A program made the position numbers and the translations under genes. The notes under the pieces were generated by a model. The model was not told where the DNA came from, made no database searches, and saw only the letters and a program-made list of their open reading frames with translations. A stretch of 64,000 nucleotides of DNA from Oidiodendron maius Zn. Lineage: Eukaryota; Ascomycota; Leotiomycetes; Myxotrichaceae. The stretch is taken from NCBI GenBank assembly GCA_000827325.1, contig KN832891.1, positions 587,861 to 651,860 of the forward strand, in the 5' to 3' direction. Position 1 is the first letter of the stretch, and each line of letters opens with the position of its first letter. Below, in pieces: positions 1 to 26,103 of the stretch.

Positions 1-133
1 CTTTACCAAAACTGAAAAGCAGCCACTACAACAAACTGCTTATTTGAGCGGCCGTCAGACAGACTCTTCTCATGTTTCCAGAAGGCAGCCAGCGACGTCT
101 TCTATCATTGAACCCTGATCACTCATTGCCATT

Positions 134-3031: not shown

Positions 3032-3408
3032 CTATACAGCGAAACTTTCGAAGAACACCATCACTAGCCCTTGGTGGACTGACTTGGCAATCGCCTTCAA
3101 AGCCGCATGAGCCTGGCATTCATTATCATAATAATCCATATCCTGCTTGGACTTAAAGACTGTTACGGCCACAACAGTAAAGCCTTGATTGCGTTGATCT
3201 TCAAAGGTGAGACCAGCAGTCACTGAAAGAATGTATGGCTTTCCATCCTATAGTTTATGAGTATTTTGAATGCCGGACGCAGTGGGGAAGATTGCACCTT
3301 CACTGCTTTGGTGGGTATCTCCTTGTACAATGCCAACAGTTTCTGCTGATCGTCGACATTTGGAATCTTGAAGAGAGTGATGCGGTTTATAGGCTTTGTA
3401 GAAGTCAT
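3032..3408 (-). CDS. Small Dabb (stress-responsive A/B-barrel) domain protein, copy 1
   Basis: Two exons, complement(3298..3408) and complement(3032..3247), are joined in phase 0 across a 50-bp GT-AG intron, giving 108 aa. The protein begins MTSTKPINRITLFKIP and ends with a hydrophobic VMVFFESFAV strand. The beta-alpha-beta pattern (RITLFKI, then LLALYKEIPTKAVK, then FTVVAVTVFKSKQDMDYY) is that of the dimeric ferredoxin-like Dabb family (PF07876). Dabb proteins include plant olivetolic acid cyclase and several fungal tailoring proteins, but many have no known reaction. The gene lies on the same strand as the FAD monooxygenase 1.05 kb upstream and resembles a second Dabb gene at 6.5-6.9 kb. 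The domain call is good; the function is unknown. Confidence 0.7.
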
Positions 3409-4457
3409 AGTGCAGAAAAATGATGAAATCCAGAGTAGTTAAGAGTAGAAAAGAAATACTTTTTATGGAATCTCTCGTCCTTACATGCTTGACTGACAAC
3501 AAAGCATAGTCCTTCTACAGTTTTAATCAAAGGCGTCCTGTGACAAAACGAACTGGCTAACAAACGGCAGTGATGGTCGGCAATTACTTGATCCGCAACG
3601 GAGTATTTCCGAACTTATCTGTTGGCATTTGCGGAAGTCGGCGGGAACAGAAGATAGATGTAATCGTAGGGAGGTAACAGGCCGCCACGTTTGTCCCTCT
3701 TTCACCGCTCCGGCCTCGAATAGGGTGCTGGCACTGCACTTCGGCGTGCATAGAGCTTGAAGGTGGATTGAAGTTGATGCATCAGTGATCGATTGTAGAT
3801 TTTCATTGGTCATTGGATTGGGTAGTATGATGTGTTGGAAGGCTACTAAAATAGCGAATTCCATTATCATGATGCGTCATCATATCAGTAGCTATTGACA
3901 CAAATATCCGAAGTCTGTTGAGAGTATTCACTGAGGTAATGAAAGGTTCAGAGTCTAGTACAATAAACGTGACGGTCTTCGTGCGAAACCATTCCTCTAA
4001 CCCATATTACCCAAATCTTCCATATCCACTGGCTTTCATACCTATAAATAAAAAGTTTGCTTTCTTCCACGACGACCTTTCGAATAGTTGAAGCCAATTT
4101 TACTTACCGCCATGTGGCAAATAACGCGGTGGAGATTGAGAAATCGAGCCTTAGATGTAAGAAAATGCCCAGACAAAGAAAGCAGGGATTTCATACTTTT
4201 ATTTTCTTGACATATAATTGTTAAAGCAAAAACTGAGATGCCACATTGGCAAATCTGTGACGGACACAGTGATATTAATAGAGAGATATTTAACTGCAGA
4301 GTACGGAGCACCATTATGTAGTATTGTGTTTATATAGGGACAGGACAGAATTCAATAAATTTTCGAACGAAATGATCTTTTCAAAAGAAGCTGCTGAAGC
4401 GAAAGTTTCAGAAGGAACTCCATGCTTCTATCCAAATCAATTTCATGGCATATCAGC
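3409..4457. other. Intergenic region, no feature recognised
   Basis: About 1.05 kb between the start of the small Dabb gene and the end of the FAD monooxygenase. It presumably contains the Dabb promoter and the monooxygenase 3' UTR. No convincing coding exon, repeat or RNA was seen on either strand. Confidence 0.5.
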
Positions 4458-5839
4458 TTACACCACTGGCAAACCGAATCCATCTTCTACTTTGTACCCA
4501 TACATCCACGCCATTCCGCCTGTGGGCCCATTCCATAATGACTGACCCCACATGATAAGCTCTTTAGCCATCTGCTTGAAGCCATTACTCTCCGGCCTCC
4601 TCTTTCTTCCATTCTCACGTGCCGTTGTGAGAACTTTCTTTACCCTCTCCTTACGATGGGCTTCCCATATTGATAAGAGGTCTAAACCGCGAGTTTTGAA
4701 ATCCTTATGCGTCATCGTATACATCAAGCTATGGGCGTCTTCAAATGCAAGCGAGGCTCCAATGCCCGCAAGAGGTGACATGGCGTGTGCAGCGTCGCCG
4801 AGGAGAATAACACGGCCCTTGGGACTATGCCAATATTCTAGTTCAGGAACCTCAAAGAATCTTCCTATAGTGGTTAGCTCTGACATCTCGTTCATCTGTG
4901 GCTACGTGGCATCTTACGGGTGACCATTAAGATTATCCTTCGCCTGCTCCCTTACGACCTTGCTAATGTGCTTAGGCCAATCGTCACCACCAAATCTCTC
5001 GACAAGCATCTTCTGTTGTTTATCCCTATGTGCCATGAAGTCATCCCAATACTCCTTGCTCTGACTAGGGAACGGGAACGTGGAGAAGAAATCGACTACC
5101 GAGCCATCATAACTGGACGGTAGCATGGCGACGAAGCCAGACTTCCCAAAAGTAAACGCCGGAAAAGATATGTTCTTATGGCTTTCGTGCAGTTGGTTCT
5201 TGGGAACTGCGAGGCCAATGACGCCTATGGACCCGCTATATACCAGCTCGACGTCGACGATGTAGGGGCGCACCCTGGAGTGTATGCCATCAGCTCCAAT
5301 AGCGAAGTCTGCCTCTACAGTTTGCCCATTTTCAAATATAAGCTTGACCCCATTGTCTGTTTCTCCCTCAACGGTAAGGAGCTTCATATTACTGTAAATC
5401 GGGATACCCTGCTCTTTGACCTTGTCGAGCAGCCCCTGATGCACGAGAGATCGATGGATGCGCAGCGCAGGGTAGCCATAGTACTTCCGGCTACCGTTAA
5501 AAAAGCTCCCCAAGTTTTGCCCTCGCGCATTGTATGTGGTGACAGCCTCAAAATTAAATCCTTTCGTGCGAATTTGGTCATATATACCGACATGATCGAG
5601 AACTCGAAGACCGTTTGGAGCCAGTGCAATATTAGCACCCCTGTTATCTCCTTCCTCGCGCAATTCATAAATGGAGGGAAGAATGGAGCCCTCTTTCGCC
5701 AGGGAGAGAGCCAAAGTCATTCCCTAGTAATTATTTTTGCATTAGTTTGAATATATTATAAAGCGACCGCGTTGCGGAACGAGTAGCTTACAGCAAGACC
5801 ACCGCCAATAATTGCCACTGTTTGCTGTCGTTCCGCCAT
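4458..5839 (-). CDS. FAD-dependent monooxygenase (group A, salicylate-hydroxylase-like)
   Basis: Three exons are inferred: complement(5792..5839), complement(4918..5723) and complement(4458..4860), giving 418 aa. The first exon carries the Rossmann motif IIGGGLAG at residues 10-17, completed across a 68-bp intron. Later come the GADGIHSRVR (DG) motif and GDAAHAMSPLAGIG, where the ribityl phosphate of FAD binds. These define the PHBH-type flavoprotein hydroxylases, which use NAD(P)H and O2 to hydroxylate aromatic or related substrates in the cytosol. The second junction is less certain: the donor GTAAGA is good and a CTAAC branch site is present, but keeping the conserved HP-FFEVPELEYW frame requires an AAG acceptor, giving a 57-bp intron. 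It sits among pathway-like genes, so a tailoring or catabolic hydroxylation role is likely. Confidence 0.85.
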
Positions 5840-6471
5840 AGAGACTTGCTATGAACAGAAAGTTAAATAATAGGCTTAGGAATAGAGAGCAAAATTGGCA
5901 TTTTTTGTATCAAATGTTGTATCAGACGTAGATGGCGAATGCTTCAACAAAGCTGGACACTAGTGCCAATTCCCGAGATTGCTGGCAGAGTGGTGGTAGC
6001 ATACGAAGTATATCAAGCTATAATGGTGACAAGGATCGGCGTATCCTCCTCCGGAATCCGTCTCTAGCACCAGCCCCCACCGCGGAGGACTCATCTCGCT
6101 CTGCAACATGACACGGAAGGCGGGAGGATTGCAATACCTCCCCACTCCGGATGAGGATGTGACACCAGCAGGGGTCGCTAGGACTTGTACTCCGGTTATA
6201 TCGCAAAGCTAACTTACAATTGCCACGTTAGGAGACAATTCCTGTAATATTTCCACAAGGCTTTCTTTAGGAAAGGGAGCAATACGCTTCACTGGAAAGT
6301 AATTATAAAAAATTATTAGTTACGAGCATAATTTCAGTATATTCCTATGTTTGTTCCAGACAGGTAATGTTTAAGAGTTAAGAAATGAACAAATCCGTAT
6401 TATAAGTCAATAAATGATCGCTTTCCATTTTAGATCATACGTCTTTCAATACATATGAATTTAAGCTCTGA
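5840..6471. promoter_or_regulatory. Upstream region of the FAD monooxygenase
   Basis: This 632-bp gap separates the monooxygenase start from the 3' end of the second Dabb gene on the same strand. It should hold the monooxygenase promoter. The palindrome-like CGGAATCCG at 6052-6060 has the CGG/CCG form of Zn2Cys6 binding sites; the same 9-mer recurs at 21567-21575. No gene is seen. Confidence 0.3.
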
Positions 6472-6925
6472 TTAGAATTCAATGTCATAGGCAAGACTAT
6501 CCTCACAGATAGCTTCTCTCAACTCATGAAGCCTGCACAAAATTAGCTAATTGATTAACAGTTCTGCACCTGACAAAGTGGCAAACCTAATATGCTCCGG
6601 ACTCTCAGCCCATGTCTTCAGATTTTCTTTAGACTCTAAGGTCAGAACCACCCCCATGCTGTATCCTTTCGCTCTAGAGTCATCAACGGGTGGACCGGCA
6701 TTATTAGATATAACGCCTTTAACAAAATTGTAAGCATACTGGAGAGCATTGCAACATTAGTTACCCACCAGGAGTTTTCCCTACAACAGCACGAGAGCTA
6801 GCAATGAAATCTGCTATCTGCTCCTTTGTGGCATCCTTCTTCAGGCGGAATAATACTTTACCACCCAGTTAGTACAGAGCGTTTTAAAACAGGCTCTGAC
6901 GCCTACCAATGCGATGAACAGGCAT
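6472..6925 (-). CDS. Small Dabb-domain protein, copy 2, in four short exons
   Basis: Too fragmented to appear as one open frame. Exons complement(6907..6925), complement(6769..6855), complement(6587..6716) and complement(6472..6532) join in frame across introns of 51, 52 and 54 bp, giving 98 aa. The product starts MPVHRIVLFRLKKDATKEQ, contains the loop GKTPGVISNNAGPP and the strand GYSMGVVLTLESKENLKTW, and ends EDSLAYDIEF. This matches the full Dabb module (PF07876) in length and strand order, including the conserved SPEHI segment near the C-terminus. It is more canonical than the copy at 3.0-3.4 kb. The two Dabb genes flank the FAD monooxygenase on the same strand, so a shared pathway is plausible. 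The reaction is unknown. Confidence 0.75.
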
Positions 6926-7645
6926 AACGTCGGAAATACTTCGTTGCAATAGCTTCGACCGTTTCTATGTGAGTAAATGAGAATAGCAAAGGATAAATTA
7001 TGATGTTCCAGGCAAGGGGGTAATTGAGGGCAGTAAATAAATGATCAGTCCCGGAGCTGCCGTGACCCCGCATTACAGCCATAAAATCAGAGCTTTCTGA
7101 CGCGATCCTGCATCTCGGCACAGTCATGCCGAGAATTCCCCCTTTGTAATGCGGAATTCCCCCGCAGGTCAGACGGTCTTCTTCGGCTCGTAGACTTTTG
7201 CAGAGATCGTATTCTTTGCTTACGTCGTTTCAAGGGCAACGTACATGCCGACTTGTCACGGAACCCGATTTAGGCACGGCGGACCGGCAAGCTGCGAATT
7301 TAAAGTTCGCAAGGCTAACCACAAATGCCATAGGCCGTAGTATGCCAAGTATTTCCGCAATCACGCTTTTCCATGTCTGGCTTGGAGACTGAACCAGGCG
7401 GACTACTCCATAAGATCTATCTGAATTGGGCATTCCAATTCCTCGTCATCGCGGCTCGCGATGGATGTCTCATCGGCACTTGATGACTGATGCCGTCTCG
7501 AGGGCCAGAGGTCGGCGTGGAAATTCCCAGAGGCCCGACTCCTATAGCATGGCATGGCAAGCCATTAATACAGCCGTCACTTATCTGGGCCGCGTCTATA
7601 ATCTCATAATTCCATAATCATCACTGTCCTTCACAGTACATCAAC
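6926..7645. promoter_or_regulatory. Divergent promoter region, Dabb copy 2 / carboxylesterase
   Basis: A 720-bp gap between two outward-facing start codons. It contains two close GAATTCCCCC blocks (about 7132-7165), the second within CGGAATTCCCCCG, and one copy of the dispersed 18-mer AAAGTTCGCAAGGCTAAC at about 7302-7319. No protein-coding exon is recognised. Confidence 0.35.
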
Positions 7646-9500
7646 ATGACTACGACACTGCAACATCCTACCCTTGGTGCCATTACTGGAGTTGTCAAAG
7701 ATGATATAGTTCAATACTTGGGAGTCAAATATGCTACTCTTGAAAATAGGCTGGCTGCGCCAGTTCCCCTGGTCGACAATGGCGGCCGAGGGCCGATAGA
7801 TGCGACAAGATTTGGGTAAGGCAAATATACATCGTCTTTGTAGTTCTTATTCTTTTAGCCGGACATCAATAGTTTTAACGCCATGCTCCAGGCCCTCTGC
7901 TGTTCATCCAATCAAACTGCTAGATGTCGAGTTCTCTGCAATCCAACAACATCTCCCCAAACCAGATATAACTATCTCTGACACAGAGTGTCTGAATCTG
8001 AATATAACGGTACCTCGGGGCTCATATGAAAAAGCCCTGCCGGTATTTATGTTCATCCATGGCGGAGGCTATGCAATTGGCAGCAACTCCTGGCCTCATC
8101 TAGATCAAGCGCGTATAGTGCGGTTTTCCGCGAAGAAGAACTTACCTGTTATTGGTGTCATTATCAAGTAAGCGTTCCCCATCCCAAGATCTTCTCTTTT
8201 ATGTTGCCGTAATGACATTTTAAGCTACCGACTCGGCCATCTTGGGTTCATGACTTCAGATGAATTGCGAGCTGCGGGTTTCAAATCTAACAGAGCACTT
8301 CTTGACCAACGTGCCGCCCTGCAATGGATCCAGAAGAGCATCGCTGGATTTGGTGGCAATCCTGACAATGTAACAATTTTTGGCGAGAGTGCAGGAGGAA
8401 GTATGTGTCCTATTTCTTGGCGATGCTCGAGGTTGACTAACATGCCAACTATCAGTCTCGTCGATGATCCATCTCAACACATCGAAGCCCCTCTTTAGCA
8501 GAGCAATAAGCATGTCAGGCACTACACTTATGCGAAAACCCATGACCGCAAAAGAAGAAGAGAAAAGTTACAAGGGAGTCCTTGACGCCTTGGAAATAAA
8601 GGACGGGAGACCAGAGGATCGCATCAATGCCCTGATGCAAGTTCCCTTTGAAAAATTCTTAACCATTCCAAGGAGTGTTGGCTGGGCTTGGTGCGTCGAT
8701 GGTGATTTTGTTGACAAAACACTCAGTCATGCTGAACTTGCTGCACTATCTGGACAAACTTCTAAAGCTATTTCGGCCATGCCAGCAGCAGCATTAGTAA
8801 AAGACTTGGTCCTTGGTGACTGTCAGCTGGATGTCAGTTTACCAACCCTCTACATGTTTATCAAATTAATTTCGGCTAACATACTTCATAGACTTCTATG
8901 GTATCCATATTTCTTGCGCCCCGAAAGCCTGGAATTGGCAAGGAATTCTCCGACTTTATGAGACGGACTTTCAGCACAGAGCCCACAGGAGTGGAAGCCA
9001 TTTTAAACGCGTATAAAATTAGCCCCACCACTGCAGACGATGAGGCCTTTCTCCATGTCCTTCAATTCGGCACAGATATCGCGTTTCTCGCACCCGTCCA
9101 CTCCTACGCTGCGGCCTGGCCGGGAAATGCCTACGTCTACCACTTCAATCAGCCTAACCCCTGGGATGGCCCGTGGAAGGGACAAACTGGGCACGTTCTG
9201 GACGTGGCCTCCTTGTTCATGAATTTTGAGGGTGCTCTCACGGTCGAGCAGCGTGCGGTCGGTGAAGCTTTTGCGGAGAACTTCATTAAGTTCTTCAATG
9301 GCGTTGTCCCTTGGCCTGCCTATAAGCAAGATGATCCTTCCACCCTCATTATCGGGGACAGAGATCAGTCTCGAGGGCCAGCATATGTAACCAACAGCTG
9401 CGATCCGAAAGATACCGGACGTAGGCGGGATATATATTCCTTTGCCCGAGTCGTCGGCTTGGACGCAATTATTGACGCATGGAATGAGTTTCGAGGCTAG
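7646..9500 (+). CDS. Type-B carboxylesterase/lipase (alpha/beta hydrolase)
   Basis: Five exons (7646..7815, 7892..8167, 8225..8400, 8456..8832, 8892..9500) give 535 aa; all four introns are 55-76 bp GT-AG. Features of the carboxylesterase B family (PF00135) are the oxyanion-hole segment FMFIHGGGYAIG, the nucleophile elbow GESAGG with Ser about 204, and the catalytic His about 434 in QTGHVLDV. The third member of the triad was not assigned. No N-terminal signal peptide is visible (MTTTLQHPTLG), so the enzyme is probably intracellular, unlike secreted fungal lipases. It should hydrolyse an ester, possibly releasing or trimming a pathway intermediate. It is divergent from a Dabb gene and convergent with the ThDP enzyme at 9.9-11.8 kb. 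Confidence 0.88.
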
Positions 9501-9902
9501 ATGTTCATTGAGACAAGGAGAAATTGATAATCTTCACCGTATAAACTCATTAAGCGAGAATCAGTTCATCTTTGTGATAGTGATAGATTAGATATAGGCT
9601 TACTAACTCCCCAATCAATGCAATTTATTGATATGTATTGTGCATATAGCGGCTGTAGATCACCAGCCGCAGATTTCTATTATTATGGAGGTGATTGATG
9701 TCTGTTTTATATCCCTTAACACTTGAGGAACACATTCCGACTAAATGAAGTGGTGGGCTCACTCTATTATTCCTCTGAGAAGGGGACATCCAGATCGACT
9801 GAGTCATCGCATTGGATCAGAAATCAGTCATTTATTCCAACACAGTGGAATATATGTACTCTAGAAATGTTGACGGAATATCTACATTACCCACGCTGAG
9901 GA
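9501..9902. other. Convergent 3' region, no gene seen
   Basis: This 402-bp stretch lies between two converging stop codons and should contain the two 3' UTRs. It is AT-rich and has no recognisable exon or repeat. Confidence 0.5.
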
Positions 9903-11759
9903 TCAGTATCCAACAACTATTCTAACTTCGACAACAGCACTAATGCCGGACTCAACACTTTCTACTGCTTTCTTCATAACCTCCTCAAGCTCATCAGCTC
10001 TGTCCACTGTTGCGGTAAACAAATTCCCCCCAGCTGCGGCCTTGGCGATTCCAGCATAATCCGGCGTTGGCGCGAAGGAGATATGAAGTTCTTCGTTGGT
10101 GGCGCGAGACCCTTCGCCGTCCGGATGCACAAGGAGAAGGGACTTCCTCGGAGCATTCCAGCCATTGTTATTAAGGATGATAGTAAGGACTGGGATCTTA
10201 TACCGCTGAGCAATCCAGTAGACGCTCCCAGGAACGCTAAATAGATAACACCCATCTCCAACGATGCAGCAGACAAACTTTCCCTTCCCATTATTCTCCG
10301 CATCCGTGGCAAGCTTTATTCCCAGCATTCCACCTCCAGACCAACCCAGTCCGCCGCCACCGCAATTAATCCAAGAGCCAGGTAAGGTAGCTTGGATCTG
10401 GTCAGCTATGAATGCGGTGTTTGTCACGGCTTCAATAGCCCATATCGTGTCTCTAGGCGCAATGCGGCGGATAGTTGCGGCAACGAAGGACGCTCCAAGG
10501 GTATTATCACTCCTTGGAGCCGCAAGACTAGAGATTTCGATTAGACGCCCTTGGTGAGCTTCTGTCATGTCGCGCCAGCGTGATGTATATTCTCTTAGTC
10601 GACTAGAAAATTCTTTAGTTGCTTTGATGTATTTCGAGAGTTGCGTAATTGCCGTGAAGCTATCTGCCCTATAACGAGCTTCTGCAGACAAATAAAATAA
10701 AGGAAATTGTTGTTTAAGGGGATCGGCGTCAATATGGACTACTTTTGCTTTCGCGGATGGACAACACTGCGTATTGATCCATGGCACATCACAATCCACA
10801 ACTAGGATCACATCAGCAGTTCTGATACACTGATGTATCCCATAGCGAAATCCTAACCATGCTGGATGGTCTGCAGGGAAACACATATCACTCCCTGCCG
10901 TATCTAAAACCCGAATTCCTTTAACAGTATTGGCAAGTTCAACCAGCGCCGGAACGGTCTTCTTGTTTCTGCCACTATACCCAGTCACAATCAAAGGCTC
11001 TCTTGCTTCCACTATAGCCTTTGAAATCTCAGCAACTGCTTCCTCGTCAAGGGCTGACGGTGCCACTGGCTTCCAGTGAGCTTGATTCAGCTGATACGGA
11101 TCTAGCTCCTCCTCCATGACTTCCCTCGCACCGCATAGGTATACAGGTCCTTGCGGGGTGCTCAGTGCGAATTGTAGAGCGCGATTTACCATTTGTTTAA
11201 TGTTTTTTCCTGTTTTGATCTCTGCCGTATAACGACAATATTGCGCAACAATCATCCTCTGATCGTGAACGTCCTGGAGCCAGTGTATAAATTCCGTTCG
11301 AGACCCACGCAATTCCCCATCTAGAGTATAGGGCGAAAGGCCGGCAAAAATAAGAACTGGAGCTCGGCCAGCGGATGCATTATGAACAGCTTGGCCTAGA
11401 GCCTGCGTACCAACGTCGACATGGACGATAACACATTGGGGTTTGCCAGTCACCCGTGCGTACCCATCAGCCATAGATAGAGCAACCATCTGCATAAAGA
11501 ACATTAGGATTAAGCCTGTACGGGATCGGATATAGAAAGCATAACCTCATTCGGACAGGTAATGATGCGTGGAAATTGCTCCTTCTTAGTATTTAGCGCC
11601 TGAGCCATTGCCTCGAGAATACTTGGGTGATCTGAGCCGAGATTGACAAAGCAGTGCGAGACTCCGGCTTCCCAGAGTGCCTCGAGGAAGGCGAAAGATG
11701 CCGTATACCTATTCGGAGTTAACCCACTGCTTTAGAAACTTATCTGAACAGAAGTACAT
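9903..11759 (-). CDS. ThDP-dependent enzyme, acetolactate-synthase/carboligase-like
   Basis: Main exons are complement(9903..11489) and complement(11546..11708), separated by a 56-bp intron. A 20-bp first exon at 11740-11759 is proposed but needs a very short 31-bp intron, so the N-terminus is uncertain (about 589 aa if right). The three ThDP-enzyme domains are complete. The catalytic Glu ends CPNE (about residue 61), followed by ALSMADGYARVTGKP. The diphosphate/Mg site GDG-x26-NNN is at about 472-503 (VGDGCYLF ... ILNNNGW). The VHVDVGTQALGQAVHNAS segment is typical of the acetolactate-synthase/oxalyl-CoA-decarboxylase side of the superfamily. Such enzymes decarboxylate a 2-keto acid and either release or ligate the carbanion. 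No mitochondrial targeting peptide is evident, so this is probably not the housekeeping Ilv2 enzyme. It is transcribed divergently from a second ThDP enzyme. Confidence 0.85.
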
Positions 11760-12304
11760 TTTATTTAACTCGGCGTGCTACCTCTTTGCCGTGATCAGGG
11801 AAATGTAACTGAGTAGATGCTTGGGAATTGCATAAAACAAGGCCTAAGAAGCAGGTGGGACGCCGCCGACAATTAAATATTATTCGGGCATATGAAGCAT
11901 TCAGTGTGCCTTCTCGGGGCATATTTCTATTAATTTTGGGCATATTTACCCCACTCATCCGTAGTTGTAGGCAAGGGTAAGGATGTATGATTCCATACTT
12001 TTTGCTTCGCAAGCGCGGCTTATGCAGATGCGTCACAGGTCCAAGGCGGATAAAATTAGAGCCGGAACAATTACATCCGGTATTCCAGGAGGCTGTGAAC
12101 TTCGCTGCTAGTCATGGCAGAGAAGACCGACGTAAGCCATTCAACAGTTGTAACTTCCGGCTCAGAGGCTAGGCAACGAGCGGAATTGTCCCGCAATACG
12201 TCTTCGCCGAGCTCTCAGAGTAGCGGATGGAGACCATTTTAAAGAAAGTGGCATGTAATATATGTGTTGCTATAGAGTCTTTACAACAAGACGACAGTTT
12301 TATC
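11760..12304. promoter_or_regulatory. Shared promoter between the two ThDP enzymes
   Basis: About 545 bp between the inferred start codons of two outward-facing ThDP enzyme genes, so their promoters are likely shared. No recognisable gene lies inside. If the first exon of the minus-strand gene is further upstream than proposed, it would be here. Confidence 0.45.
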
Positions 12305-14448
12305 ATGGATCGCCAAATCCCCCTCGCTCGGTATCTCTGGACAAGGTGAGATTTCCAAAATCTACCTCTATTGGTCACTGATGAATTCATTATCAGGGTC
12401 CGTCAACAAGGCGTCAAAAGCATAATGGGAGTACCTGGGGACATGAATCTTGAGTTGCTAGACTACATTAAATTAGTCTCTGATTTAACATGGGGTCCGA
12501 GTTCTGTTGAAATATCTCTCATACAATTCTTATTTTGACGATATGTAACAGTGGGCAACGCAAATGAGTTAAACGCAGCTTATGCGGCGGACGGTTATGC
12601 GCGAGTCAAAAACTGTCCAGGAGTTTGTAAGTCTCCAATAGCAGCATATCCAGATACGTATCTACTTGAGTGAAACTTACTATATGTAGTGGTCACGACC
12701 ATGGGCGTTGGAGAGCTAAGCGCCATAAATGGCATTGCAGGAGCGTACACAGAACAAGTTAAAGTCATACATATCGTGGGAACGACGGCAACAGATACGC
12801 AATCGCAAAGACTCATGATACATCATAATCTTGGTCCTAGACCCGATCACAGAGTGAGCATGGAATGCAAGAAATATGAGTTGATCTGACCGGAGAGACA
12901 GGTGTTCGAAAAAATCTCATCTCATGTTAGATGCACCTACGCCTGGCTGGATAACGCAGAGACAGCCCCTGAAGAAATAGATGTATAACAAAACCTTAAA
13001 TTTCAGATGTCTTCCTGAAGGTAATAGCTAATTCTTTTGGCACAGAGAGTCATCCGCGAATGCAACGTGCAGTCGCTCCCCGTCTATATATACGTTCCCA
13101 TGGACTTTGTTCACACTCCAGTATCCAGTCAACGTCTTGAGATGCCATTGGAGATATTTCCTCCTATTGATCTAGCAAACGAAGAAAGAGCTGTTAGCGC
13201 AATTCTCCATATAATCTCCGCTTCGAAGCATCCGATCGTTCTTATCGATGTGCTTACTGCACGACACAATGCGGCGGCAGATACTAGGGAGCTGGTTGAC
13301 GCTCTCGATTTTCCGTTCTTTGCAACGCCAATGGGAAAATCAATTGTGGACGAGACTCATCCTCGATTTTGCGGAATCTATAACGGGGCGATTTCGTACC
13401 CGGGGATTGCAGATGTAGTTGAGTCCAGCGACTGCGTTATAAACATTGGTCCACTCTTGTCAGACAGTAACACAGGCGGGTTATCGAGAATGCTGTCTGC
13501 TGAACAATTAATTGTTCTTGAGTCATCGCATTGTGAGGTATAGCATATTGCATAAATTACATTTACTGGCACTTCTAATAAACTGACGGGCTAGGTTCGA
13601 GGAGAAAGATTTGAGCAAGTCTATTTATCATCTGGTAAGTTCCCTTCTGTGATAATAGGCTATTCATCTGACGGGGCAGCGATTCGGAAAATTACCAATA
13701 GAGTTGGTCAAGTTAAAATACCTTCGAACAGCAACCCTGTTATACCTATACCGACCCTCCCAAAAGACCACGAATCAACTTCTATCGTTCAATCATGGAT
13801 ATGGAAACGACTTGGGCAGTTTACGCGCCCTTATGATATCGTCATTGTAGAGTCCGGAACTGCGCAGTTTGGGATCCCAGATGCTTCCTTTCCTCCAAAT
13901 ACCACCCTCATTAGCCAGGTTTATTATGGAAGTATTGGATATTCCGTTGGGTGTGCCATAGGTGCAGGCTTAGCCCAGCGAGAACTTAGTGTTGAGAATA
14001 CTACTGCCGCTGGAAGGCTCCTCCTGGTAGTTGGGGATGGCAGTCTCCAGTTAACTGTCCAGGAGATTGGTACCGCCATCAAAGCTAACCTGTCTCCAAT
14101 TATGTAAGTTTCCCGCCATTTAATTGATTTTAGCCTAGCTGATGATTTAGAATTGTTATAAACAATAATGGTTACACGATTGAGCGGGCGATCCACGGTC
14201 CAACTGAGTCGTATAATGATATAACGCCCTGGCGGCACCAGTTTCTCTTGGAATTTTTAGGCGCTAAGAATGCAAATCAGTGCAGCCGAGAAGTCAGGAC
14301 GAAGGTAGAGATGGAGCGCGTACTTCAACTATTAGACTATATTTCGCCCAGTTCCATCCAGCTCCTCGAGGTGTATATGGCACAGATGGATATACCATGG
14401 AGATTGAGGGACCAAATTTCTTTAGTTCAAAGGAGGAATAACAAATAA
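12305..14448 (+). CDS. Pyruvate/2-keto-acid decarboxylase-like ThDP enzyme
   Basis: Nine exons (12305..12345, 12397..12494, 12552..12626, 12690..12853, 12902..12982, 13046..13537, 13595..13634, 13680..14103, 14151..14448) join in frame to 570 aa, the usual length for pyruvate decarboxylase. All catalytic residues of that family are present: Asp29 in GVPGD, Glu52 in [18 protein letters not shown], the His pair 116-117 in MIHHNLG, the GDG-x25-NNN cofactor site at 449-478, and the NNNGYTIE Glu at 483. It should therefore decarboxylate a 2-keto acid to an aldehyde in the cytosol. It departs from housekeeping PDC elsewhere, for example [15 protein letters not shown] and a divergent C-terminal region, which suggests another substrate such as an aryl- or branched-chain keto acid. 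It is paired head-to-head with the other ThDP enzyme. Confidence 0.88.
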
Positions 14449-16068
14449 TATTATTGAGTAACAGAATTACTATAGTCTGATAGCCTTGTTTATAAGTTCA
14501 AAATCATAGGGCATTCGTTACTCATAGAACATGCAATTCAATGCTACGAAGTGGCAATATTCCTTTGTGAATGTATTTCGCAGTGTTTTGGTGTCTATTT
14601 ACATAAAATTCATGGAGATTAGGAGCTCTACGCTCTTGATAATTTTAATAGAATTGTTTCCTAGTGAGCATCTGCCACCATATACCATAGTAAGACACGA
14701 ACTAATTGGCTGCTGCTGCTCTTGTTATCAAAGATTTATTCAATTCATAGAGATGACCTTGGGGAGGTCTGGTGCTGCCGCTCTCTGGTTTGATCGAGTC
14801 GTAGTCTATACTAATATCAAACATTTGATGAACTTGAATGCGTGCCATAATTCATTTCTGCTCCCCTTGATGCCGCTCCCAGTGGGATAGATTGCCCTGT
14901 CACTTCAAATTACCTATTTGGCTGGTTACATTTGCACTCATCCGGCTAGATACTAGGCTAGTTACGCGACTGGACGATTGTACGCACAGCTCCAAACTCG
15001 TGCTATCAGTCCAATGCCCGTCATAGCAGTCTGGTCCTGAGGCCTCAGCGCCATGTTCTCCTATGTTTGCAGGTTCAGGTGGTGGTAAATCGCTGTGGAG
15101 TTTGCCCACAATTCAAGCCGAGTATAGTTAGTTGGTTTCGGCCTTTGCATTTGACAACTTTTCCAGTCTGTCTCTCGCTATCACCCTCCTTTTTTCCCCC
15201 GTTTTCTCCCTTCTCGGTCCTAATTTTACCTCTTTCCCATTACCGCTAACCCCTTACCCGTTACGCCACTATTGCCAATTATGGAGACGCTCATTCCGCG
15301 TCTCGTAAGGACTACGGGGCCGTGTTAGCATCTGTGACATTCCGTGAACAACTACTCGTATCTGGGATAAATAAATGCACACCATGTTCCTCGCTTCCCA
15401 GGTAACTATTATATGTTATTGGTCAAAATCCCCTGAAGCGAGGAACAGGGTGTGCGTTTATTTATCCTACTGTACTGTAGATATGAGCAAACATCCCGTT
15501 CCAGGAGCATGGTTACCCCAGTCCTGTTCGCACGGCTAGATAAATTGAGCGGCATGTCTAATATAATACTTCATACAGTACATAGCAAAATAAAAGGGGG
15601 CGAATCAACATATAGAAAGCAGGGGGCATCCTTAGCGCTGTGGCATGCGACGACGGAGCAGGGGATAGGAGCTTTACTTTGCCATAATGGGAATAGGGCT
15701 TCCGTATGATGTTGCCAGGTCTATCGTAAGCACAGTTCCGACCTCACGCCAAGACCGGGCAGCAACGGATTCTCCAGGAAGCGGGTTTGAGATAACGGCA
15801 GTGGCTTTCCCCAAGGTTACATAATACTGCACATTCGTAACACCGGGTTTCGATAGGGAGGCACCTGACTTACGTAGACCAGAGAGAGCTGTGGGCTTTA
15901 TGGTTGCTCCCTTATCTTCTCGGTTGAACTGAACGCCCAGTTCGTTCCGACGCTGGTACCAGGTCGCCGTTACCGTTCTCGACACGGCTTCCCAGCTCGC
16001 AGCTTACCATTGCTCTGCAACCTCTGTGGAACATTGCAGGCGGGGAAAGAACCTATGCCTATCCGAGG
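14449..16068. other. 1.6-kb intergenic region with an inverted repeat
   Basis: No gene is supported here. The stretch 15140-15250 is pyrimidine-rich. An imperfect inverted repeat lies at 15364-15466 (listed separately). The last part should be the promoter of the Zn2Cys6 gene at 16069. Confidence 0.45.
15364..15466. repeat. Imperfect inverted repeat (hairpin-forming)
   Basis: The left arm at about 15364-15400 (GGGATAAATAAATGCACACC, then TGTTCCTCGCTTC) is the reverse complement of the right arm at about 15431-15466 (GAAGCGAGGAACA, then GGGTGTGCGTTTATTTATCC), with only a few mismatches. The arms are about 35 bp with a spacer of about 30 bp. It could be a small non-autonomous element, a regulatory hairpin or a transposon scar. 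Confidence 0.6.
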
Positions 16069-17806
16069 ATGGTTGGCATCCCAGGTCGAAGTAGAGGTTG
16101 TCTGGCCTGCCGACAGCGCAAGATCAAGGTGCGCCTCATCATGCCACCCTGTCGTTTTCATACTCTCTCGCGCCTTCTGAGGAAGAAGAGCTGGGTCTGA
16201 CTGTCCCTAGTGTGATCAAGCCCTTCCGGCATGTTCGCAGTGCCGTCGCTCACGACGACGCTACAGATGCACTGGCTCCATAACTGGAGTTTTCATTTCG
16301 ACCATGACATCAGAGAGCGTAAACCAACCTACAAGTGCAAAGGAGCTATCGCGAGACTCCCCTTCTCCATCACCTCTTATAAACGCCCAGTTCGAAGCCC
16401 AGAGCACCCTTGCCAGGCCAAATGATGCAGGTGGACTCGACCGCGAACAAGACATTCTCTCGAACTCTCAGCTACAGACTCTTCAACTTCCGCGCGCCAA
16501 AGCCTTTGAGCAGTTATTCATCTCCCATTTTGTTGAGTCTTTTGGTAATACTCGCGATACCCCGCCTTTCTGGCTAGATAAGCTCCCGGAATTCTTCTTC
16601 TCCTCTGCATCAGGACCAGCCCGGGAATCAATCCGTGCAGCTACAATGTTGTTCTATGGCATCTTGACGTGTAATATTCCTATACAAACAGAGGCGAATC
16701 GATTTTACGCCAGAGCCTTGCGCAGTCTGCGTGCCTGGCTACAGAATGGGAATGGGACCCCTTCTAACAGTGGCTATAGCACTAACCTCAGCGCCGCCCC
16801 GATATCTGATAGTATAATCGTCTGTGCTCCAGTTATGATGTGTCACTTTGAAATGATGGCTAGCTCTTCTCCAGATGGCTGGATGAACCATATTGAGGCC
16901 GCAGCCGGCATGCTAGAGAGACTTGGCCCTGAGAACTGCCGTCTTGGATTGGAGCATGAGATGTTTCTCACCGTGAGACTCTTTATGGTAAGGCTCTTTT
17001 CCGTTCTGCTTTACCCGTATTGCCTATTGGATAAACTACGCAGATCTCTAACTATTATTCGACAATAGGTGTTCGTATGCATGACGAGAAATAAGGCACA
17101 TTTGTTTATGTCGGAGCCTTGGATGACGGTTCCTTTCGAGAAAAGTTCGAAAAATCTACGGGACGAGCTCGTTGACGTTCTCCTTTTACTACCAGGATGC
17201 CTGACAGTGAGCGAAGAGTTCTTAAATATAAGAAGGCTGGGATCAACGATGGTAGAGATAGAGGCCAAATTGCGTGACTCTGTCCTGTCTCTAGTGTTTG
17301 CACTTCATCAGTGGTGTCTCAAATACTGTTATACCGAAGATGGCTTTGGACGGCTTTACCTTGACGCTGATGTTTGTACAGGGGTGCCTTCTCAGGACCG
17401 TACTACTTTGGTTGCTGTATTCGACGCTGCAAATGTAATTGCCTTCTCACTTTTGCTTCTTGTAACACCAGCAACATATCACCCCAATCACAGTTATCAA
17501 GCTCGGCTTCATGCTCAGTCAGCTCTATCCGCAGATGCGTATATTGACTCGAACTATATCACTGCGCCTGGTGGTGGATCTTTGTTGATGGCGTTCGCAT
17601 TGAAGATCGTTAGCGTTTGGGCTCCACTGCAAGAGCAGAGGGACTATGCCATTAGAAAACTCCAAAATTGGGATCTGAGCAAATCTTCCCATGAGAGCCG
17701 TGGGTTCGCGGCGCCAGTCTTCCGAGACGAAGTATGCAACGTTTATTATGTTAATGTGGCTAAAGAAATATCACACCGACTAGACGATCCAATTCTCCTG
17801 GAATAA
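16069..17806 (+). CDS. Zn2Cys6 transcription factor within the metabolic run
   Basis: Three exons (16069..16128, 16211..16987, 17069..17806) give 524 aa. The first intron, 82 bp, splits the zinc cluster. Residues 15-41 across the junction read C-x2-C-x6-C-x6-C-x2-C-x8-C (CLACRQRKIK joined to CDQALPACSQCRRSRRR), the binuclear zinc cluster that binds CGG-type half-sites. The remainder is a helical fungal regulator domain (PF11951-like) with MLFYGILTCNIPIQTEANRF and FHFEMMASSSPDGWMNHIEAAAGMLERLGP-like segments. The start ATG is the only one in frame close to the zinc cluster. Its position between the ThDP enzymes and the SDR/methyltransferase genes makes it a candidate pathway-specific activator. 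Confidence 0.85.
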
Positions 17807-18049
17807 TGGGCCTGCGGACGGTTTGTGGTAGGCAAGGATGGCTGCTGCTGTGATTTAGCTGCGGTTGAGCTTGAATATGAGCCAGATTAATACAATTGGT
17901 GGCGTAAGAGAACAGCTTCATGCACTAGATACAGGAATTATATCATAGCCCTAATTTCCTTGGCAGTGTAGATATTGCAATCTGAGTGAATAGGCATCTG
18001 CTTCGAATTTGTTTATTCATGACCGAAATATTCTATGCTAATGAACTAG

Positions 18050-19018
18050 TCAAACAACCATCCTCATTTTAAGTTTGTCCCCCTTGACAATCTCCTCTTG
18101 CCTTGCTTCTAACTCATCAACGTCCCAAGTAGCACTCAGATATCTGCCACTTAGCCATGACCTCTGGCCTTTAGTAATCCACACAAGAAAACAACCACAG
18201 AGCTCTGGAGTATCGATAAGCACTTTCGTTGTCAGTAATAATTTAGAACCAGAAAGGTAGTACCCACATGGCCGGAGTGCCTTGCTTCTCTTCGTCATCT
18301 CAGTTAGCACGCAGCCGGGGTGTACCGCAATGCAATTCACACCATGCTCTCCATACTCAGCATTCACAAACTCTGTAAATCGGAGGAGAGCAAATTTGGA
18401 TGTCTGATAAGCGGAGACACTAGCATGAGTCTTATGTGCCCCGTCCGAGCTCATATTGATAAGGTCAACCTGTTTTTTCTGATTCTTGGCCGTTGCAACA
18501 AGCAATGGAAGAAATGCTCGGGTCACCATGTAGGTTCATTTCATATGTACTGTCCATATTTTCCAATAACGATCCACATCGCTCTCCGCGATAAGAGCAG
18601 GTTGAGCACCCACACCTGCGTTGTTGATTAAAACATCGAGTCTTCCCTCCTCCTCCTTCACCAGATCCGCTGCCAACATAACCTGTGTATCATCGGTGAT
18701 ATCCAGTGTTAGTTTACGGATTTTAACATTTATATTCCTCGCCTTGACGGCCTCTTCGACTTCATCCAATTCCGAAGTTGTCTTAGAGCAAAGGATAATG
18801 CATCCTACCCCACTGTCGGCATAACGTAGAGCAATGGAACGACCAATCCCCCGCCCGGAGCCGGTGATCAAAACCACCTTAAAAGGCTGCGATAGATTAG
18901 ACTTTGTGGGATCTATAGAAGAATAGATGTCGTGACGAAGAATAGCAGTAAAGTTGTGTCCGATATTCTCCACAAAATCAGCATTCTCAAGAGTGGCTAT
19001 CTCCTTAGTCTCAGTCAT
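18050..19018 (-). pseudogene. Short-chain dehydrogenase/reductase broken by one TGA codon
   Basis: One frame runs from ATG 19018 (MTETKEIATLENADFVENIG) to 18050. It contains the cofactor motif TGSGRGIGRS, the NNAG motif (LINNAGVG) and the active site Ser/Tyr/Lys (NMSSDGAHKTHASVSAYQTSK), so this is a classical SDR. TGA at 18536-18538 (about codon 161) falls between VHMK and TYMVTRAFLP, where SDRs of this type have Gly (KGTY). GGA to TGA is a single G-to-T change. The downstream part stays in the same frame and is well conserved, including the C-terminal WLSGRYLSATWDVDELE. A probable 45-bp intron lies near 18207-18251. No intron can plausibly remove the stop. Either the gene died recently, the base is a sequencing error, or the stop is read through. 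An in-frame ATG at 19090 is less likely as the start. Confidence 0.75.
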
Positions 19019-20147
19019 AATAAAGTATAAGGTAGTGAAATATGGGTGTGCTGGCAGCTTGGGCTTCAAGGTACTTTGGATGGGAATCATCTACTCTTTA
19101 ACTACACTATAACTGGGAAATTTAAACGTTGTGTTCTGTAATCATTACCTAGAGATCCACCATTACCTTATGGCCATCCTTGGCCTAGCATTTATTCCCA
19201 TTAGTCTCATATAGCGGAGTGGCTCCGGTTACTCCAGTAAGTTGTAAGCAGCCCATTTCTATGTGGTCATATTTTACCGTGTTCTCTTGCCGAGAGCGGG
19301 ATCAAAACGGGTAAATAATCAAGCCCCGAAAGGCTTCGCTTTGTTAGCTCTTTGTATTGCTTGTCAACAGCTAATTTCTGGTCTCTTTCCCAGCACTTGG
19401 TCGGCTCGCATTCGCTCCCTAGTTGGTAGAAGTAAAATTGTCGGGCAAGAAATCGTCTAGACAAAATTTGTTAGCAATTCACATACAAACTCCATTAGAG
19501 GGCCGGCCTGAAGATATGATGTAACAATGATATATTAGCAAAAATCAAAAGGATAATTGGATCAGAAGGATGCAAGCATGATGAGGTGATGGAGAAACCC
19601 CCAAATCGCAGCTGTGCCATTTCCCATTAGAGACCACCACGACACATCTATAACTGAAGAAATATCCCTACATTAAAGAGGTTAATTTCAGCTCCATCAC
19701 TACTCTATTTATTTCTATACTTTGAAACGAAGCGATAGGGACAACTACCAGGCCGGCGAGAGCAGGGGGGGAAGAGCACCAAGAAGCCGGCACAGAAGAC
19801 TACTGCAGCGACTATACTCAATACGGGGTTCGCCAGGTTGTTTAAAAATATTGATATCTCTGCAGATACCGCGCAATAAGTTGTGGCGCAAAAGTTCATG
19901 CAATTCAGCTGGACAAATGCTTCATTAATTGAAGGATATGGCCTCTAATCTAGGGGTTATATATACAAGAGATCAGGCTTCAATGCTTAACTTATTCTTC
20001 GGCACCGATGACATAAGCAAAGCCTTGACAAAGTTTGTTGTCTCCTCGCGTCTCTTCGCGGCGCGTTGTTGACTTGTTTATAAAAGGCAATTCGAAGTCT
20101 CATATTAACCACATGTCTTTGCCAATTATCCAACATCAGCACGCGAC
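19019..20147. promoter_or_regulatory. Divergent promoter region, SDR relic / methyltransferase
   Basis: A 1.13-kb gap between outward-facing starts. Several short open frames occur, none with recognisable domains or splice structure. No repeat or RNA gene is seen. Confidence 0.4.
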
Positions 20148-21168
20148 ATGGATGAGGAAGTCGGGCCAATATCAGGAGTGTCACGTCCAGAATGGACTTC
20201 TGAAGACCAGTTCTACATTTCAGACAAGGCTAAAGACCTCCTTGTAAACTACAGTGGTATTCTTGACACTAATATCCGCAGCTACTCCGTTGCCGTTGTA
20301 CGTCTCCCAGTCACCGACCTATCATAATCCAACAACTTGTTCTATATACTGATTGGCAGATTAGAGAGACAAGGCTTGGAAAATATTTCCATGTACGCCA
20401 ACTCTAGTTAGGATACAGAGAGAGAAAGATACACTAACATATTGCGGCTTAGATCGATGCATAGGAACATTCCGATTCCTAGACTTCTCCTTGATAAGGA
20501 ACCCGGCGTATGGCGAAATTCTCACTCGCATCAAACGGGGCCAGAAGTTCCTCGACATCGGTTGCTGCCTTGGCTCGGACATACGTGCTCTCCTCTATGA
20601 CGGAGCTCCGGCATGCAACGTCTTCGGCCTCGATATCGAAGCCGAATTCATCAATCTTGGCTACGACCTTTTCGTCGACGAGGAAAAACTGGCGCGGCAT
20701 CATTTCCGAATCACAAGTATATTTGACCAAACTATTACCTGTCCCGATGGTACATTAGGCGATTTGGCCGGCAACATCGACATTGCACATTGCGGAGCTT
20801 TCCTTCATCTATTTGAGTGGGACGGCCAGGTCCGTGCAATCGAGAAGATCATTTCAGAAATTCTAGTCCAAAATCCTGGGTGCCTTCTTCTGGGACGTCA
20901 GAAAGGCTGTAAAGTCCCAGGCACATATAATCATTCATTCCGTGAACAGAAGAGCTACGGACACAATGAGACCTCATTTAAAGCGATGTGGAAGGAAATT
21001 GGAGACCGCACGGGAACGGATTGGAAGGTAGATTTCACATTCGAAGGAGACCTGATCGATGGAAGCGGAGAATCGAGTAGGTTGGTCATCTTGAAAAGTG
21101 GAAGTAACACAGAGGGGGATCGCCAGGTGGTGCAGAATTTTAGTTTCAAAGCCGAGAGGGTCAAATGA
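20148..21168 (+). CDS. SAM-dependent methyltransferase, fungal meroterpenoid-cluster type
   Basis: Three exons (20148..20297, 20365..20392, 20453..21168) give 297 aa. The 28-bp middle exon restores the conserved RDKAWKIFPYRCIG segment that precedes FRFLDF in this family. Motif I is KFLDIGCCLGSD (residues about 91-102), followed by the acidic GLDIEAEFINLGYDLF loop and the DIAHCGAFLHLFEWDGQ motif. The arrangement matches the fungal methyltransferases found in meroterpenoid and other natural-product clusters (the AusD/Trt5 type), which methylate carboxylates or hydroxyls. It is the clearest hint that the neighbouring genes form a biosynthetic rather than a purely catabolic set. No signal peptide or membrane segment is present. 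Substrate unknown. Confidence 0.85.
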
Positions 21169-21966
21169 TTTTCTACAGTCAAGAAAGACATTCGCCCTAT
21201 CTCATTCAGATCATCTAGCATGGCCTGAATCTAACCCAATAGCCTGAATCTACACTAAGAATATACTAAGAATGAAGTCCTTGTCTAGTGTAAACGCAAA
21301 GACCCACCGACACAGCGCCAGTTCCTAGCTACATTCGCTGAGCTGTATACCCGGCATGTATTCTGTACATCAGCAGCATCTATATATCCCACGAAAAAGC
21401 AATGCCGTGCCTTACTGTATACAATTGACCCACCAACTAAGTTTTTCCGGATCTCCATCGTGACCAATGCTATGCTATAGACGGCTGTCGGCCGATACTT
21501 GCTCGAATCCAATGGGAGCGATGTGCGGCGGTTCGCTGCGCCCCGTTGCTTTCCGCATCTTTCCTTCGGAATCCGGGGATGAGCAGGATCTTGGTTGGCT
21601 GTCGGCCAATCATTTCATTCCCTTGGCGGCAACCGAGGGTTAGTGAAAATTTATTGCAGTAGAGAAATTGGGGGGGATTGATACTAAAAATACTACTACA
21701 TATAGTGCGGCGGAAATAACCTAGAGCGCTCTGGCCCCTTTACGTGTAGAATATAAGTGGATGCGGAGTCCCGGCTTGTGAAATCGGCTGTTTGTCGCTG
21801 ACACCAACGAGTAAACTGCCCCGAAGACAAGCATGGAAACCCCATCTTCTGTGATCCTTACTGCTGAAGAGCGACGTCGGCAGGCTCTCACGGGACATGT
21901 GTAAAGTAAAATCCTATGATTAAATAAACCTATACAATTAATATAGCACTAAGCATGCTTCAAGGT
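21169..21966. other. Convergent intergenic region
   Basis: About 800 bp between two converging stop codons. It contains a second CGGAATCCG at 21567-21575. No coding exon is supported. Confidence 0.45.
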
Positions 21967-23472
21967 TCAGGCGTTTTCCCATCTTCTGTCGTCCATGCAC
22001 AAACTGTTATCTGACGTTCCGTAATTATGCATTCTTATTATCTCCAACACCTGTGACTCCTGACTGCCTCTTATATTGGAATGAATTTCATCGGTGTTCG
22101 AATTTTGCATCGAGCTTGCATTATTCGAGCTCGAATCCGTCCGATTTAAATGACTTCGACTCACGAAAGCTAGCCCAGAAGCTTCGGAGGATACATCTTG
22201 CGAGTTAGCATTATTTTGTACGTACGTGGCTCGACTTCTGCCGCTCCTACTTAATGGATAACTTGCGGTCCAAGCGGGAGAATTAGAAACGATAGAGCGA
22301 TATAGTGGACGCAGCATGCTTGCTGAAGCTGCAAATATACCAAGGCCCGTTTCTACAGTGCTCCAGATATGGATATCCCTACCAAATCTGTTAGAAAGAA
22401 AGTCGGTCTGATAATGTTGAATCTGGCCTTGCTTACACTGCCTCGTACATTGCATCTTCTTGTAGCAACACCAAATATGGGATGCGCAGCAGAGTGGCTA
22501 CTCCAGCGCTGTGTCAAGTTAGTAAACGGGGGCGACGATAAGGCATTATGACTACCAACAGTAGACCCAAAGCGAGAAGAGCTGCTAGAGACACCTTTGT
22601 GCGGCGACCCATTTGGAGATTCCAGAACATGACAATAGGCACCAATCCAAGAACACAATCTATAATAAAGGAGACAACAGATTGGGCGATCGTTACATCC
22701 CGTACAGGATAGACTATGCAACTGCCATGGCCCCCAGCAAAACCTAGATTAATAGACAAGTTAGCCATTCACTAAGCATACCTTGAAAGAAAGGAGGGTA
22801 AATATTCCGAGCTGGGAAATAATATCATGGAAACTCTGAGAAGGACATACGACTCCAGAAAAAGTCGACAGGAGAGCATTCAAACAATATAAAGAAGAAA
22901 TAGAAGATGGAGTAGGTGACGGTTATAGTCATCGACGTATAGATGATAGTATCGTAAACTCGTTGAACAGACACCCTGGTTAGAAATATCGCCACTGCAA
23001 GACGGACGAAGGTAGCTGAAAGTACATATAACAGTCTAAATTAGCACAAGTCAGCGATAGAATCAGGTTGGTGAAGCGACGCTCTAAAGATGCTCACTCG
23101 GACAAAAATGCAAGATAAGCTATTTTGGGTCGATTAGCCGGTAGAATATTGTTGACATATTTCCCCATCCCGTAACTTATCGCCAGTGCGCCACAGATAC
23201 AATTGCTCGTAAAGAATACCTGCCTCCACTAAGGTTAGCAAGAAAAGGACGGGCTGTAGTATAACGCACAATAGAAATCGCCACTAGTACATCATCCCAT
23301 CCGAACGACTTGGTAATACACCTTCTGACATAGATACGAAGAGGAAAGAACACCCATGAAATTCCGAGCATGATCCCGATCACGACAGCTGGAATGGTGA
23401 GAATTGACACCGTGATACACCGACTCTCCGAGATAGCTCACCATATTCAGTGCGCCTGTCGTCCGACGCCAT
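21967..23472 (-). CDS. Seven-transmembrane rhodopsin-like fungal membrane protein
   Basis: A multi-exon gene. Exon 1 is complement(23442..23472) (MASDDRRTEY), joined over a 53-bp intron to an exon starting at 23388 with AVVIGIMLGISWVFFPLRIY. The second loop has the family signature VRRCITKSFGWDDVLVAISI. Later exons encode FLSE-LLYVLSATFVRLAVAI, FLTRVSVQRVYD, VTYSIFYFFFILFECSPVDFFW, the extracellular GGHGSCIV segment and VVSFIIDCVLGLVPIVMFWNL. The closing helix IWSTVETGLGIFAASASMLRPLY is typical of the fungal rhodopsin family (PF20684). The Ser/Asn-rich cytoplasmic tail runs to the stop at 21967. These proteins are common in fungal clusters and the plasma membrane, but their function is mostly unknown and they are not light-sensing opsins. 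Internal junctions were not all fixed, but no broken frame was found. Confidence 0.75.
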
Positions 23473-25754: not shown

Positions 25755-26103
25755 ATTGAATGGTGTGTTGTCGATCCTTCAGATATCCTATGTTGTTTTA
25801 AGGACGGCGAAGTGTTGTGCTAAGGATGAAGAAGATGACAGTCGTGACGTGCTGGGAGCAAAATATTATATGCGAGCATGAACGCCCGAGACGAGACTAA
25901 CCCGACCTGAACCGACCCGTCATCGATTGAATCATCGACTCGTTTAAGGTTCCGATATGTACGGTAGACTTGAGGTTTATTAAGAGTACATTTTTATTTA
26001 TTTGGTTAGTGTAGCATTAGCTAGTACTTAACTTTCTCGTCATTGTAGTGGAAGTTTACTATTAACTCACGGTGAAGATAAATATGACTAACGTGTATAT
26101 ATA
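25755..26103. other. Gap between the phosphoesterase relic and the transposon block
   Basis: 350 bp that turn sharply AT-rich from about 25970 onward. It should hold the former promoter of the phosphoesterase. No other feature is seen. Confidence 0.5.

Follow-up and report, generated by a model that had tools for sequence, protein, structure and literature searches.

Oidiodendron maius Zn (Ascomycota; Leotiomycetes) carries, on contig KN832891.1 of assembly GCA_000827325.1, a run of genes that includes two thiamine diphosphate (ThDP) enzymes of different families, here called ThDP1 and ThDP2, together with an internal Zn2Cys6 regulator. The stretch analysed comprises 64,000 nucleotides (positions 587,861 to 651,860 of the forward strand; hereafter the window, from whose first letter all positions are counted) and the run occupies positions 3,032 to 23,472. 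The run is tentatively read, with a little less than an even chance of being right, as a small, locally regulated fungal route for the degradation or detoxification of an ester or a hydroxy or oxo acid, probably aromatic. ThDP1 resembles benzoylformate decarboxylases (BFDs) in predicted fold and core residues, and its bacterial relatives often appear to sit in degradative-looking settings similar to the mandelate pathway. The original prediction, made from the sequence, had favoured a biosynthetic function built on the two ThDP enzymes and had mentioned a catabolic one as an alternative; the latter is now the better supported.

The two thiamine diphosphate enzymes

Gene models were rebuilt by splice-aware dynamic programming and by hand, and their domains were checked against Pfam. 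The ThDP1 gene (9903..11707, minus strand) was modelled with two exons (11546-11707 and 9903-11489) that encode 582 residues without a stop and contain the TPP_enzyme N, M and C domains. Its product exceeds the cut-off of NF006203/PRK08327 (567 versus 456 bits), a curated whole-protein NCBIfam model named "thiamine pyrophosphate-requiring protein", and is by this measure a member of that family. Unlike the bacterial members, it is encoded by a fungal, intron-bearing gene located among Dabb, monooxygenase and esterase genes.

The best solved sequence relatives of ThDP1 are BFDs, with 91 bits for the single sequence and 145 bits for a 22-sequence profile. A structure model was predicted from an alignment of ThDP1 with 21 bacterial relatives (22 sequences; mean pLDDT 81, pTM 0.84), and a Foldseek search with it returned BFDs or engineered formolase variants as the first 48 of the 50 matches listed. 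These include the 4-hydroxybenzoylformate decarboxylases 7orx and 6qsi, and also Mycobacterium 4q9d, which is entitled a "putative" ThDP enzyme and is named a benzoylformate decarboxylase in the sequence search. The last two places (49 and 50) were taken by HKA synthase. The HKA synthases BbmA and CsmA (8x3x, 8x3z), which are carboligases of natural-product pathways, belong to the same superfamily as ThDP1, but match it more weakly than BFD does (56 versus 91 bits) and rank lower in Foldseek.

E47, H70 and H281 are catalytic residues of BFD, and the corresponding positions were read off the alignments. Glu47, His70 and Ala460 of BFD are kept in ThDP1, the first column being Glu in 20 and the second His in 21 of the 22 aligned sequences. 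The Gln that the ThDP1 row shows in the Glu47 column stems from intron read-through, and in the spliced model Glu ends the exon 11546-11707. Thus, in its predicted fold, its three TPP domains and these Glu and His residues, ThDP1 is like BFD (MdlC of the mandelate pathway) and like 7orx and 6qsi, yet by strict features it is not a member of the BFD family. The two are about 20% identical, ThDP1 has its own NCBIfam family, and at the position of BFD Phe397 it has Asn. Unlike in BFD, VPW and AP motifs are fully or almost fully conserved among the relatives in the alignment. A GSDH motif is invariant in all 20 relatives that reach the BFD Ser26 region, a region that none of the BFD alignments inspected spans.

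ThDP2 (12305..14448, plus strand; 8 exons, 585 aa, intact; TPP_enzyme N, M and C) is encoded divergently from ThDP1. Its residues 4-583 match yeast pyruvate decarboxylase (PDC) 2vjy with 464 bits, followed by bacterial alpha-keto acid and indolepyruvate decarboxylases, and the alignments show in ThDP2 the residues of a PDC-type active site (Asp, Glu, His-His and a second Glu). This end-to-end match, residues included, is what is expected of a fungal pyruvate/indolepyruvate decarboxylase, and ThDP2 is therefore assigned, from its sequence, to the ordinary PDC-type decarboxylase family. With 411 bits, it stays short of the 946 required by the bacterial model for indolepyruvate decarboxylase. Unlike yeast PDC, it has Gln instead of Ala at position 392 (yeast numbering), so that its pocket may differ.

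Bacterial relatives of ThDP1 and their gene neighbours

A single scan of a species-genome collection recovered 28 loci with relatives of ThDP1, and a tblastn search of plasmids gave 364 records, from which 13 windows were taken among 20 listed. Identity to ThDP1 is 43-48% among the 21 sequences from bacterial genomes included in the alignment, and 36%, in its best segment, for locus L026, which was not included. All nine bacterial relatives scanned pass the NF006203 cut-off, and L037-L041, outside these nine, carry the product name of NF006203 members. Viral contigs yielded no relatives of ThDP2, and none of five pattern matches to ThDP1 was confirmed.

For the first 33 loci, 28 from genomes and 5 from plasmids, neighbours were sought within 0.5 kb of the ThDP gene, using seed proteins from those same loci, a procedure that overcounts close relatives and misses distant ones; several loci also end early at contig ends. 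Under these conditions, MFS transporters were found in 10 loci, MarR regulators in 5, aldehyde dehydrogenases in 3, FAD-linked 2-hydroxy-acid-dehydrogenase-type genes (FAD_binding_4 plus FAD-oxidase_C) in 3, ketopantoate-reductase-type genes in 2 and a second ThDP gene in 2. D-mandelate dehydrogenases are known among ketopantoate-reductase-like proteins.

Eleven of the 13 plasmid windows are annotated (L029, L030, L031, L033 and L035-L041; L032 and L034 carry no annotation). Eight of them contain an aldehyde dehydrogenase, which in L036 is annotated as succinate-semialdehyde dehydrogenase, and five contain a 2-hydroxy-acid oxidase or ketopantoate-reductase-type gene. As controls, four 48-kb stretches were chosen arbitrarily from four of these plasmids and divided into twelve windows of 16 kb, in which the corresponding counts are two and zero (Fisher p 0.012 and 0.014), a rough comparison given that the controls are few and arbitrary, that the windows measure 15.6-25.7 kb against 16 kb, and that two of them come from one genus. 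One of the two control aldehyde dehydrogenases is itself located near another ThDP gene.

Individual loci illustrate these settings, those of Ponticoccus, Paroceanicella and Neorhizobium most clearly. In Ponticoccus the ThDP gene is found beside an alpha-hydroxy acid oxidase, a mandelate-racemase family protein, a tricarboxylate-type transporter and an aldehyde dehydrogenase, and in Paroceanicella an alpha-hydroxy acid oxidase, a MarR regulator and an aldehyde dehydrogenase adjoin the ThDP1 relative. The Neorhizobium window harbors a carboxylesterase, a ketopantoate-reductase-type gene, an aldehyde dehydrogenase, a MarR regulator, a TRAP transporter and an alpha-hydroxy-acid oxidising protein, while that of Novosphingobium has a ketopantoate-reductase-type gene and an MFS transporter, with catechol/beta-ketoadipate genes a few kb further on. 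Several of the bacterial relatives thus appear to share with the mandelate pathway an operon logic in which a hydroxy acid is oxidised, the product decarboxylated and the resulting aldehyde oxidised.

Two Acetobacteraceae loci (L016 and L020, at about 9.5-11.2 kb) carry a second ThDP gene less than 70 bp from the PRK08327-type gene, and the second protein of L020 passes the PRK08266 cut-off, so that paired ThDP enzymes of two families exist in bacteria too. The tblastn matches to ThDP2 in L008, L016, L020 and L044 are weak (22-25% identity). In L010 and L011 a ribonuclease J gene, probably unrelated, follows the ThDP gene.

A putative degradative route and competing explanations

In the route envisaged, the carboxylesterase would free an acid from its ester and the FAD monooxygenase would hydroxylate the released acid. 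ThDP1 would then convert a substituted, arylglyoxylate-like 2-oxo acid into an aldehyde by decarboxylation, and ThDP2 would remove carbon dioxide from a second 2-oxo acid. Reduction or oxidation of the aldehyde or alcohol would fall to the short-chain dehydrogenase (SDR), where it is intact, and the gene set would be turned on by the Zn2Cys6 protein. The step assigned to ThDP1 supposes that it acts in the fungus as its bacterial relatives appear to do. Such a step, preceded by an esterase and followed by an enzyme that oxidises or reduces, is consistent with a degradative route, and a carboxylesterase is also present in the Neorhizobium window. The order of the steps, the substrate and the common regulation of the genes are presumed in this scheme, as is any participation of the Dabb, methyltransferase-like and rhodopsin-domain proteins. 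Most likely the run is degradative or detoxifying and made up of known kinds of enzymes, and a breakdown pathway is more probable than a new way of making natural products. What is new is that the bacterial neighbourhoods suggest a concrete, testable role for PRK08327 proteins: they would be the decarboxylases in hydroxy-acid routes of the mandelate type, in bacteria and, extrapolating from these, also in fungi. Should the genes belong to a single pathway, cluster finders that rely on core enzymes would be blind to this catabolic or detoxifying set. In titles and the beginnings of abstracts of the open-access papers searched, no fungal cluster with such a gene set was found, and PRK08327 was not mentioned by that name, the name NF006203 not having been searched. 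KOG1185, a thiamine pyrophosphate-requiring enzyme, is reported to be missing from five Magnaporthales assemblies (PMC5897359).

Several observations weigh against this degradative reading. ThDP1 lies far under the cut-off of the BFD model NF005485 (130.5 versus 493 bits). The BFD His281 is not kept, being replaced by Asn in ThDP1 (in the 22 aligned sequences the column is Pro in 20 and His in one), so that the substrate may differ. The search for a first exon of ThDP1 gave none with a convincing donor site, a weak GTTACA donor alone yielding an open model, and the protein may consequently not be expressed intact. As for the bacterial evidence, besides the roughness of the enrichment test, 12 of the 33 loci have no seeded neighbour within 0.5 kb. 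Three of the 11 annotated plasmid windows (L030, L033 and L038, from Aneurinibacillus, Thermomicrobium and Geminicoccaceae) lack both aldehyde dehydrogenase and hydroxy-acid oxidase, the first two having an MFS gene nearby. Also, tblastn of the first 33 loci detected no relative of the Dabb proteins, monooxygenase, carboxylesterase, regulator, methyltransferase or rhodopsin protein, the SDR not being among the queries; the carboxylesterase of the Neorhizobium locus (L035), which shares 28% identity with the fungal enzyme across 371 positions, is the sole case among 12 later loci. Finally, the modelled genes of the run include no aldehyde dehydrogenase, hydroxy-acid oxidase or transporter, although unlinked genes could supply the two enzymes.

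Two alternatives would make the run biosynthetic. According to the original prediction, the ThDP pair itself is the core, which decarboxylates keto acids and ligates them into an acyloin scaffold for decoration by the products of the other genes. Side carboligase activity is indeed common in ThDP decarboxylases, HKA synthase, a carboligase by name, closes the list of Foldseek matches, and the ThDP1 pocket is unlike that of BFD at both replaced positions (H281 and F397, each to Asn). Little positive evidence for a scaffold-forming carboligation was found, however: ThDP2 is a standard PDC-type protein matching decarboxylases over its full length, ThDP1 has BFDs as its nearest solved relatives, and the bacterial relatives of the latter often occur in degradative-looking operons. 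The suggestion that Dabb proteins act as cyclase-like partners likewise has little positive evidence: Dabb1 has no PDB match at E values up to 1, and the similarity of Dabb2 to olivetolic acid cyclase, on which the idea would depend, is marginal (E 0.0063). A ThDP core of this kind is accordingly judged very unlikely, and an equally slim chance is given to its fuller form, a coreless pathway in which PRK08327 and PDC-type enzymes would build an acyloin or alpha-hydroxy-beta-keto acid skeleton for processing by the monooxygenase, Dabb and methyltransferase-like proteins. Alternatively, a conventional core enzyme, such as a polyketide synthase (PKS), nonribosomal peptide synthetase (NRPS) or terpene synthase, could lie to the left of the window, with the ThDP enzymes making or removing an aldehyde or oxo-acid precursor. 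Monooxygenase, methyltransferase, Dabb and Zn2Cys6 proteins are usual tailoring equipment, and the window begins close to the run, its first gene starting at position 131. That gene encodes an ADP-ribosylglycohydrolase, which is not a usual tailoring enzyme, and the search of the 64 kb turned up no core enzyme, which leaves such a cluster improbable.

The run could also reflect neighbourhood without a shared pathway, common fungal genes (esterase, monooxygenase, Dabb, PDC paralogue, SDR, rhodopsin) having come to lie beside a transposon-rich block, an explanation that is unlikely but retains an appreciable chance. Both strands are used and gaps reach about 1.6 kb, the SDR is interrupted, ThDP1 has no convincing first exon, and transposon fragments occur at 30.8-32.3 kb. 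The presence of an internal Zn2Cys6 gene and the divergent arrangement of the ThDP pair speak against it, as does a 24-nt element (88% matching) found in inverted orientation upstream of both Dabb genes. The 10-base core of this element, AGTATTTCCG, occurs without mismatch at only three places in the window, one ahead of each of the Dabb1, Dabb2 and carboxylesterase genes. The candidate regulator sites are CGGAAATACTCCG (3599..3611, minus strand), upstream of Dabb1, CGGAAATACTTCG (6931..6943, plus strand), just 5' of the Dabb2 start, and CGGAAATACTTGG (7345..7357, minus strand), between Dabb2 and the carboxylesterase. The element contains CGG and, in the Dabb1 copy, CGG-N7-CCG, a shape bound by Zn2Cys6 proteins. 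By count, the sharing is insignificant, which favours chance over the degradative route: in eight promoters, neither 63 gapped CGG-pair patterns nor shared 7- to 10-mers exceeded dinucleotide shuffles. Ten-mers present at least three times in the first 24 kb numbered 16, against 7-19 in 30 shuffles, and those with at least four G or C numbered 14, against 3-14. The element is therefore kept as a lead only, the evidence for each site being weak.

Other genes of the run and the rest of the window

All ten genes named in the original prediction, among them the two ThDP enzymes and the internal regulator, whose domains Pfam recognises, were recovered between 3,032 and 23,472 by gene models and Pfam, the methyltransferase at a sub-threshold level. 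Of the eleven genes that extend from the ADP-ribosylglycohydrolase to the rhodopsin gene, nine gave complete open models. Introns across the modelled genes are short and of the GT-AG type and, together with the Zn2Cys6, HET and Fung_rhodopsin genes, point to fungal, probably ascomycete, DNA. The Dabb2 and rhodopsin genes seem broken when read frame by frame and are intact after intron removal. The GC content at third codon positions ranges from 0.41 to 0.53 along the run and no gene stands out by composition. The leftmost gene seen, that of the ADP-ribosylglycohydrolase (131-2296, plus strand), has a single exon; its Pfam domain covers residues 18-308 of 721 and a long extra C-terminal part remains.

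Dabb1 (3032..3408, minus strand; exons 3304-3408 and 3032-3247) is an intact protein of 106 aa matching PF07876 (E 7.8e-14). Dabb2 (6472..6925, minus strand), with four exons (6907-6925, 6769-6855, 6587-6716 and 6472-6532), is likewise intact (98 aa; PF07876, E 5.4e-17). Between them is encoded the class-A FAD monooxygenase (4458..5839, minus strand; 3 exons, 419 aa, intact; PF01494, FAD_binding_3, E 7.6e-27), whose best PDB match is tropone 2-monooxygenase (96 bits), followed by salicylate monooxygenase, and which falls under the cut-offs of all 25 NCBIfam models listed. The type-B carboxylesterase (7646..9500, plus strand; 5 exons, 535 aa) is intact and matches PF00135 (COesterase) with E 5.2e-60.

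Beyond the ThDP pair lies the intact Zn2Cys6 regulator gene (16069..17806, plus strand; 3 exons, 524 aa; Zn_clus and Fungal_trans_2). Between ThDP2 and this gene, positions 15365-15467 form a short hairpin or element like a miniature inverted-repeat transposable element, with 33-nt arms that are 94% complementary and spaced by 37 nt. The SDR (18050..19018, minus strand), predicted to be broken, does contain one in-frame TGA (18536-18538); both halves are otherwise open and match adh_short, at its positions 1-99 and 115-190, and a sequencing error could account for the stop. The "cluster-type" methyltransferase of the prediction is present as a methyltransferase-like gene (20148..21168, plus strand; 2 exons, 317 aa), a weak call with only sub-threshold methyltransferase-domain matches (best PF13847, 19.3 bits versus a cut-off of 27) and no PDB relative at E values up to 0.01. 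The run ends with an intact fungal rhodopsin-domain membrane protein (21967..23472, minus strand; 7 exons, 377 aa; PF20684, Fung_rhodopsin, E 1.8e-41).

The claim that no PKS, NRPS, terpene synthase or dimethylallyltryptophan synthase (DMATS) is in view holds within the window. According to Pfam, the proteins modelled in 1-23.5 kb include no such enzyme. Beyond 23.4 kb there are 67 stop-to-stop frames of 90 aa or longer; the 44 that were scanned, with which 22 of the other 23 overlap, matched 14 Pfam families, no core enzyme among them; such a scan might miss a core gene built from very short exons, and the search stops at the left edge of the window. An AT-rich block, with GC down to 32%, extends over 26000-35000 and contains, at 30.8-32.3 kb, SH3_retrovirus and sub-threshold Pol_BBD matches, pieces that resemble a degraded Copia-type retrotransposon. 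To its right, a secreted-looking protein with a sub-threshold SnoaL-like match is encoded at 35454-36101, with Fungal_trans_2 fragments nearby (37.1-38.4 kb). A match to UstYa, an oxidase family of some fungal peptide natural products, at 57229-57528 is sub-threshold (21.5 bits versus a cut-off of 25) and too short and weak to call. The region 46847-60157 contains a second Zn2Cys6-type region, amino-acid permease pieces, an MFS transporter and a HET gene.

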